DNA of 11,162 nucleotides, from NCBI GenBank assembly GCA_019245455.1, contig JAFARM010000412.1, positions 1 through 11,162 of the forward strand, in the 5' to 3' direction. Origin of the DNA: Sphingomonadaceae bacterium (GTDB taxonomy: Bacteria; Pseudomonadota; Alphaproteobacteria; Sphingomonadales; Sphingomonadaceae). The position numbers and the translations under genes are program-made. Shown piece by piece: positions 2,058 through 3,651 of this stretch (position 1 is its first letter; every line of letters starts with the position of its first letter). Below the pieces are notes generated by a model. It saw only the letters and a program-made list of their open reading frames with translations, ran no database searches and was not told the origin of the DNA.

Positions 2058-3651
2058 AGTGCGACTTCGCCTCGTACAGCGTGTCGAGGTCGATCGCGGC
2101 GAGGCCGCGTTCGGCGGCGAACTTCTCGGTGTTGCGCCGCGCCTTGCCGCGGACGAAGAACGGGATCTTGCCGAGCTCCTTCTCGGCTTCGGTCGTCCAC
2201 GCCGGGTCGTTGGCGGCCACCGCGACTCCCCTCCCGCTTGCGGGAGGGGCTGGGGGTGGGGGAGTCGGCGACGATGCCTTGCCCCGGCGATCCCCACCCT
2301 CGACCCCTCCCGCAGGCGGGAGGGTAGAAGCGCCAAGGTGAGACGCCGCCGCGCCGTCGTGGAACTCGAAATCATCGCGGAACATGGCGAGGAGATGCTC
2401 CTCGAGCCCCATCGTCAGCGGGTGGACGAGTGTGTCGAACAGTACGTTGGCGCCTTCGAAGCCCATCACCGGGGAGTAGCGCGCGGGGAAGTCCTGGACG
2501 TGGACCGGGGCGGAGATGACGGCGCACGGAATACGCAGCCGCTTGGCGATGTGCCGCTCCATCTGGCTGCCGAGGACCAGTTCCGGCGATGCCGCGGCGA
2601 TCGCCGCCTCGACCGCGAGATAATCATCGGTGATCAGCGGCTCGACATTGTACTTCGCCGCCGCCGCCCGCACCTCGCGCGCGCCCTCGCGGTTGTAGGC
2701 GCCGAGGCCGACGACCTCGAAGCCGATCTCGTCGGCCGCGACACGCGCCATGGCGACGGCGTGGGTCGCGTCGCCGAAGACGAAGACGCGCTTGCCGGTC
2801 AGGTAGGTCGAGTCGACCGAGGCCGAGTACCACGGCAGGCGCGATCCCGCGGCCAGCGCCGGGGCGGGATCGACGCCGAGGACGGTAGCGACCTCGTGGA
2901 CGAACTCGACCGTCGCGCCGTGGCCGATCGGCACGGTGCGGATCGTCGGTGTGCGAAAGGTCTTTTCCAGCCAGCGGGCGGCGGTGTCGCCGGTCTCGGG
3001 GTAGAGGACGATGTTGGCGTCGGCCTCGCCGAGCCGCGCGAGATCGGCCGACGAGGCGCCGAGGGGGGCGGTGACGGCGACATCGACGCCCATGAGCCCA
3101 AGCAGTCTCGTCACCTCGACGACATCGTCGCGGTGGCGGAAGCCGAGCGCGGTCGCCCCGAGCAGGTTGACCCGCGGCCGCCGTCCCTCGCGCGGTGCCG
3201 GCGTTGCGGCGGGGTCGGCCAGTGCGCGGACGAGGGCGTAGAACGTCTCCGCCGCGCCCCAGCCTTCCTTGCGCTGGTAGCTCGGCAGCTCGAGCGGGAT
3301 CACCGGCACCGGCAGGCCCAGCGCCTTGGCGACGCCGCCGGGATCGTCCTGGATCAGCTCGGCGGTGCACGATGCGCCGACCAGCAGCGCCTGCGGCTGG
3401 AAGCGGTCGTAGGCGTCGCGGATGGCGTCCTGCAGCAGCAGCGCCGTGTCGGTGCCGAGATCGCGCGCCTGGAAGGTGGTGTAGGTGACCGGCGGCCGGT
3501 GGTCGCGCCGCTCGATCATCGTGAACAGCAGGTCGGCATAGGTATCGCCCTGCGGCGCATGGAGGACGAAGTGCACGTCCTTCATCGCCGTCGCCACGCG
3601 CATCGCGCCGACGTGCGGCGGCCCCTCGTAGGTCCACACCGTCAGCTGCAT
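2047..3651 (-). CDS. bchB: Light-independent protochlorophyllide reductase subunit B (BchB), with repeat-derived linker
   Basis: BchB pairs with BchN in the nitrogenase-like NB protein of DPOR, which reduces ring D of protochlorophyllide using electrons from the BchL Fe protein. The protein has 534 residues and starts [12 protein letters not shown]. Asp36 sits exactly where the unusual aspartate ligand of the NB [4Fe-4S] cluster is known in Rhodobacter capsulatus BchB. Asp280, in SASVDSTY, is my candidate for the catalytic Asp274 of that enzyme. The catalytic part runs to about residue 435. Residues 442-476 are a low-complexity Pro/Gly/Arg-rich linker encoded by an inverted pair of palindromes. 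A C-terminal PCP_red-type domain follows (about 485-534, ending YEAKSHYAR). The linker keeps the frame open, so the gene appears intact. It overlaps bchN by 10 bp and bchH by 11 bp. Total length is within the range expected for the family, because this linker is naturally variable. Confidence 0.96.
2226..2327. repeat. Inverted pair of GC-rich palindromes (REP/BIME-like) inside bchB
   Basis: Two hairpins face each other. The left has a perfect 10-bp stem (2228-2237 CCCCTCCCGC with 2240-2249) and a TT centre. The right has a perfect 9-bp stem (2305-2313 with 2316-2324) and an AG centre. Beyond the stems, the G-rich tail of the left unit (to about 2262) matches the reverse complement of the C-rich tail of the right unit (from about 2291). 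The whole is therefore two copies of one unit of about 37 bp in opposite orientation, separated by about 28 bp. My boundaries give 102 bp, a multiple of three, and all of it is read as bchB codons 442-476. The shape resembles intergenic REP/BIME repeats common in GC-rich alphaproteobacteria (from memory). No other copy was noticed in this window. A terminator role is unlikely because there is no T-run and the element is inside a translated gene. Confidence 0.85.

Follow-up and report, generated by a model that had tools for sequence, protein, structure and literature searches.

The bchB gene in the analysed window, a stretch of 11,162 nucleotides from a Sphingomonadaceae genome (G000), very probably carries in its reading frame a copy of a short, non-autonomous REP/BIME-like repeat that has spread through the genome; it lies at an interdomain linker that such repeats have probably colonised repeatedly and where they appear to be read as a flexible spacer. 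The gene (positions 2047-3651, minus strand) encodes the 534-residue subunit B of the light-independent protochlorophyllide reductase (DPOR). Inside it, 2226-2327 form a GC-rich inverted pair of hairpins with matching tails, 102 bp long, encoding residues 442-476 on the minus strand. Hairpin 1 (2228-2249) is a perfect 10-bp stem with a TT loop, and its G-rich tail (2250-2266) aligns with those of most other copies in the genome. Hairpin 2 (2305-2324) is a perfect 9-bp stem with an AG loop, its tail (2289-2304) is the inverted counterpart of the first, and each hairpin holds an exact core. The spacer between the two units (2267-2288) differs from copy to copy in G000, and similar spacers recur in the relative G103. 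Domain matches place the catalytic Oxidored_nitro domain at residues 12-412 (2416-3618, minus strand) and the C-terminal PCP_red domain, in frame behind the element, at residues 485-529 (2065-2199, minus strand). The first-pass annotation had described two perfect hairpins of 10 and 9 bp with matching tails as an inverted pair translated as residues 442-476 ahead of PCP_red; its coordinates were verified on the sequence, and the open reading frame and the domain match both agree with it. The C-terminal domain behind the element is conserved, with dN/dS values of 0.15, 0.25 and 0.28 against three congeners. Genes were predicted with a self-trained third-order model, as scoring codon usage relative to base composition failed to distinguish genes from non-genes. 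The gene finder also placed a partial gene at 3-2057 (minus strand), named bchH in that annotation, which overlaps the end of bchB.

REPs can affect mRNA, and these hairpins might do so by slowing ribosomes or by protecting the message between bchB and bchH. The predicted RNA fold of 2215-2340 (minus strand) is indeed very stable, at -85.9 kcal/mol against -63.3 (SD 4.2) for 200 dinucleotide shuffles (z -5.4), none of which was as good, and the element lies about 170 bp before the bchH start given by the gene finder. However, congeners lack the element at this place, and the copies in PdhB and LeuRS described below lie well inside their genes. In genus g7, moreover, decay of the palindrome did not cost stability, because the predicted fold of L058, the decayed linker, reaches -94.9 kcal/mol, while the six others lie between -72.1 and -81.5 (lengths differ). 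We therefore consider a role in the mRNA improbable.

Within the own genome, an assembly of 2.65 Mb in 430 contigs at 95% completeness, there are 51 exact cores, all of them inside the examined contigs (264,231 bp including the window), whereas the reversed-pattern control gave none; with up to two mismatches the counts were 101 and 3. BLASTN of the element returned 80 rows at E ≤ 1e-3, a number that includes both strands of a near-palindrome and is thus not a count of 80 elements. Clustering of cores with up to three mismatches gave 45 sites: 29 fall between genes, 14 within a predicted gene and 2 across one of its ends, so the unit of about 37 bp is multicopy and mostly intergenic, as the first-pass annotation had anticipated for a mobile palindromic repeat. 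Five of the 14 in-gene sites (L081:3405, L088:114, L097:1361, L101:6147 and L107:551) were judged to be chance three-mismatch matches, and two more, at the start of L090 and the start of L104, look doubtful. These counts also bear on the idea that the hairpins are chance products of a GC-rich Pro/Ala linker of the usual kind. Many relatives do have an Ala/Pro-rich linker, and one unrelated linker (L193) reaches a 10-bp stem, but chance is refuted because the core is multicopy in G000 with a control of zero, and the pair architecture is common to 21 other aligned pairs; its probability is close to negligible. Across the family sample, the exact core was present in 92 of 199 genomes, and the three other congeners in that sample had 29 copies (G190) or none (G063 and G134). 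The distribution is patchy, with two congeners lacking the core, 29 and 51 copies in others and 74 in G103.

By clustering, the units were paired at 24 of the 45 sites in G000. Of these, 23 were aligned, L101 among them being really a single unit, and most of the 22 true pairs have hairpins, tails and ends in common with a spacer that varies from copy to copy. In G103, 20 copies taken from the best matches have spacer motifs in common, also with the bchB copy of that genome. This recurrence of spacer motifs indicates that in G103 the pair, about 105 bp long, moves as a single unit. Capture of host DNA as the spacer was rejected for G103, where spacers recur, but may apply in G000, where they differ. 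The flanks of 42 elements gave no sign of target-site duplication and hence no support for transposition: the longest flank repeat averaged 0.81, whereas shuffled pairings averaged 1.01 and 167 of 200 shuffles were at least as high as observed. The Y1_Tnp profile (PF01797) for RAYT-type transposases found no gene in G000, which at 95% completeness leaves room for a miss, and matched in 1 of 12 family genomes, the other 11 being without. A GTAG, CGTC or complementary tetramer stood near the outer ends of only 5 of 42 elements of the window's family. Between three and six of the six frames are open in each element copy (23 rows examined), and a copy of fitting length is therefore often translatable.

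The element is absent from the BchB linkers of all five sampled congeners (G190, G134, G063, G271 and G235), which marks it as lineage-specific as far as these sequences go. As a multicopy, mostly intergenic unit missing from the BchB of congeners, it bears out the insertion proposed in the first-pass annotation. Its flanks, however, show partial replacement of the linker. Between the motifs SHL and W, the linker has 18 residues in G190, 30 in G134 and 26 in G063; outside the element only about 10 residues remain here, against 18 to about 31 in congeners, so that a clean insertion is ruled out and some of the BchB linker was evidently lost or replaced. The total linker length lies within the range of relatives without palindromes, and solved BchB proteins of 534-536 residues have an Ala/Pro linker of similar length without the element, which counts against a simple length argument. 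With 430 contigs, the assembly might have joined a repeat wrongly into bchB, and contigs can break at such repeats, as in G285, which ends inside one in bchB. Such an artefact is very improbable, as the reading frame runs on into a C-terminal domain closely resembling the one in congeners and the same arrangement is found in the single-contig genomes G103 and G038.

Palindromic elements of four sequence groups were present in 22 of 96 different Sphingomonadales BchB linkers. Nineteen carriers were recognised by signature and three on inspection, namely L058 and L249, which are decayed and kin of carriers, and L248, with one intact unit missed by signature. After four duplicates had been removed, the first comparison took in 59 of these linkers, with 13 signature matches, along with the 54 from other groups described below; the second comprised 42 more loci, 40 of them parsed, with 6 matches, and dropping three identical linkers left the 96. 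Two loci that reach contig ends stand outside this number, L283 with a CCCTCCCGC element and L280 without, and L275, which had an extra signature match (T5) via a 10-base motif, was excluded from the carriers. Within the evenly drawn family sample, an element was present in 18 of 76 linkers (78 BchB in 397 genomes, 2 cut by contig ends), and the other four carriers came from named loci (the best 80 of at least 593). None of 54 linkers from other groups, 6 of them labelled merely Proteobacteria or Alphaproteobacteria, matched the signatures, which were defined after the first linkers were inspected and would overlook further families; other groups, too, have strong hairpins that match no signature (L193, L151 and L143). 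Type T1, CCCTCCCGC-like, comprises L030 (the window's bchB), L043, L034, L047, L032, L116, L162 and L249. Type T2, CCTCCCC..GGTGGAGGGG, is found in L041, L048, L266 and L248; type T3, which is CGTC-tagged, in L051, L055, L058, L253, L256, L261, L265 and L279; and type T4, TCGAGCGAAGTCGA, in L127 and as a single unit in L117.

On the BchB tree, these states require at least 15 changes when typed, 14 when untyped and 12 without L058, L249, L248 and L117, under a parsimony that does not separate gains from losses. The tree was built by a quick maximum-likelihood method from 101 BchB sequences with their linkers removed (the 96 and 5 from other groups), and in it 36 of 98 inner branches are open. 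Close kin differ: L041 has an element and L042 has none, and L047 has one that its nearest sisters lack. Of eight linkers in genus g2, two have T1, two T2 and four none, and a ninth genome (G285) ends inside T1. This end of contig C27 (L283), within a CCCTCCCGC element in the bchB linker, is a further insertion state in the genus. In genus g7, T3 is present in 7 of 7 BchB, one of them decayed. Own-genome comparisons covered 13 of the 22 elements (L030, L043, L032, L034, L041, L048, L047, L055, L051 via L055, L116, L162, L127 and L117); all recur, 12 of them clearly, with recurrence of L043, L032, L034, L041, L048, L047, L055 and L051 judged among the matches listed. The weak case is L032 in G001, with one row at 73% among the matches listed. 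Across 57 bchB genes, 13 of 30 strong hairpins fell in the linker, which makes up 11.6% of the bases (binomial p 1.2e-5, which is descriptive because of the kinship among rows and the prior choice of the linker); ten of these 13 belong to elements, and those of L031, L049 and L052 lie outside them. The linker between the catalytic and C-terminal domains of BchB is a repeated landing site.

A stronger reading, that the linker is a true hot spot, replaced by insertion or conversion and largely written by mobile DNA whose inserts are retained as linker, is possible but unlikely. Inserts might also be kept because they are useful, as a ready-made flexible linker that favours the BchB gaining one. 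All seven g7 proteins keep the CGTC-type pair or its decayed form, apparently from one old insertion, and L256 keeps both stems through double changes. The first CCCTCCCGC-family unit is read in a single phase, as L-P-x-x-G-G or close to it, in six insertions (L030, L043, L032, L116, L162 and L283). Only L034 departs from it, no unit being scored in L047 or L249, and this common phase, which speaks for the main reading as well, fits selection for a small, flexible spacer, although the cases are few. The CGTC-type stems of both L256 and L253 keep pairing through double changes, which suggests either that other copies renew them or that selection acts on the palindrome. On the other side, the linker stays open even where the palindrome has decayed (L058 and L249) or has a mismatch (L279), and 74 of the 96 linkers have no element while linker length varies widely. 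We therefore regard retention through usefulness as rather improbable and prefer the view that the BchB linker is a tolerant site and therefore repeatedly colonised.

The window's family also appears to be translated elsewhere in G000. Seven firm copies in six genes look translated, in BchB, PdhB, LeuRS (two copies), FolP, MutY and LigD; host genes were named from Pfam domains in a scan that excluded L101:5087-6532, and the FolP, MutY and LigD copies were clustered as single units. In the leucyl-tRNA synthetase gene (L079, G000:C282, 429-3203, minus strand), two in-frame copies cover residues 243-277 and 730-769, about 75 residues within an essential enzyme. The FolP (L096), MutY (L100) and LigD (L104) genes seemingly hold several palindromic repeats side by side, and in the latter two an apparent second repeat family is translated as ...MGPRFRGDD.... 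PdhB (L078, 15931-17397, plus strand) has the element in the linker between its lipoyl and E1-beta domains. As a comparison linker it gave 30 loci from 119 genomes, of which 23 were parsed and 2 had a REP-type insert by eye (its own and L214), a rate that is biased because the query carries the element and the 30 loci are those that matched it best. L201 and L220, left out of this count, have strong hairpins too (0 and 2 of 30 shuffles as good). The insert in L214 seems to be a different repeat-like sequence.

Taken together, we propose that a non-autonomous repeat of about 100 bp, an inverted pair of units, has spread through this sphingomonad genome, the pair moving as one unit via an enzyme that would act in trans. 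Copies would insert or be copied widely, and those falling in genes would survive only if in frame, free of stops and located where the protein tolerates them. The interdomain linker of BchB would be such a place, and at least three palindrome families, probably four, would have settled there time and again in Sphingomonadales. Translation would turn the element into a flexible spacer rich in Pro, Ala and Gly that affects DPOR little or not at all. This provides a natural series for asking whether in-gene palindromes survive only at tolerant sites or supply new protein parts: the site is a single short linker with at least 12 changes on the tree, several families have reached it, close relatives differ in whether they carry an element, and the enzyme is assayable. 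It also places several protein-coding palindromes in one phototroph genome where no RAYT-type transposase was found.

BIMEs are paired inverted REPs that form composite elements, and the window's element resembles them in its two inverted units with a spacer, as it resembles REP/BIME sequences in being a palindrome of 20-40 bp in many copies (51 exact cores) with inversely paired units. It differs from BIMEs in lacking GTAG and in a host genome where no RAYT-type gene was found, and from MITEs in showing no excess of target-site duplications in 42 elements. Rickettsia palindromic elements (RPE) are reportedly short, multicopy, protein-coding palindromes that are tolerated in frame in unrelated genes, and several are said to occur per genome, housekeeping genes included. 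S. alaskensis and E. litoralis, which enter the comparison below, we take to be sphingomonads.

Like RPE, the window's family seems to lie in frame in several genes, and this part of the likeness to Rickettsia drawn in the first-pass annotation stands; the CGTC end reported for RPE is absent, which does not fit it. The family is also GC-rich and has a host outside Rickettsia (RPE being known here by description and not by sequence), and one BchB site has been struck in many lineages by several families. Di Nocera 2013 (PMC3733652) describes GTAG- and CGTC-tagged REPs and their dimers that lie completely within ORFs; the many species concerned include S. alaskensis and E. litoralis, and more than half of the inserts are dimers or groups coding for 20-30 residues. 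The same paper reports CGTC REPs without a dedicated transposase, gives CGTC as an end of RPE, equates CGTC elements with RPE-4 and RPE-6, and describes different REPs at about the same recB site in two Xanthomonas. Such CGTC dimers are seen in BchB linkers from genus g7 and from G208 (L253), the g7 family having the CGTC tag and a CCA tail, and L261, with CGTC, an 8-bp stem, a 5-nt loop and CCA on both units, fits that description as far as the available text gives it. The window's family, in contrast, has neither the GTAG nor the CGTC tag of the REPs described there. The word chlorophyll is absent from the main text of that paper as available, the available part of PMC12518044 does not mention the BchB linker, and we found no report in the open-licence literature of palindromes in BchB or of one linker struck by several families in many lineages. 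In-gene palindromes are thus already known, from Rickettsia and from the 2013 REP survey, and what appears new is the recurrence of palindromic elements at one BchB linker, which, unlike the cases in the available part of that survey, has undergone at least 12 changes on the tree.
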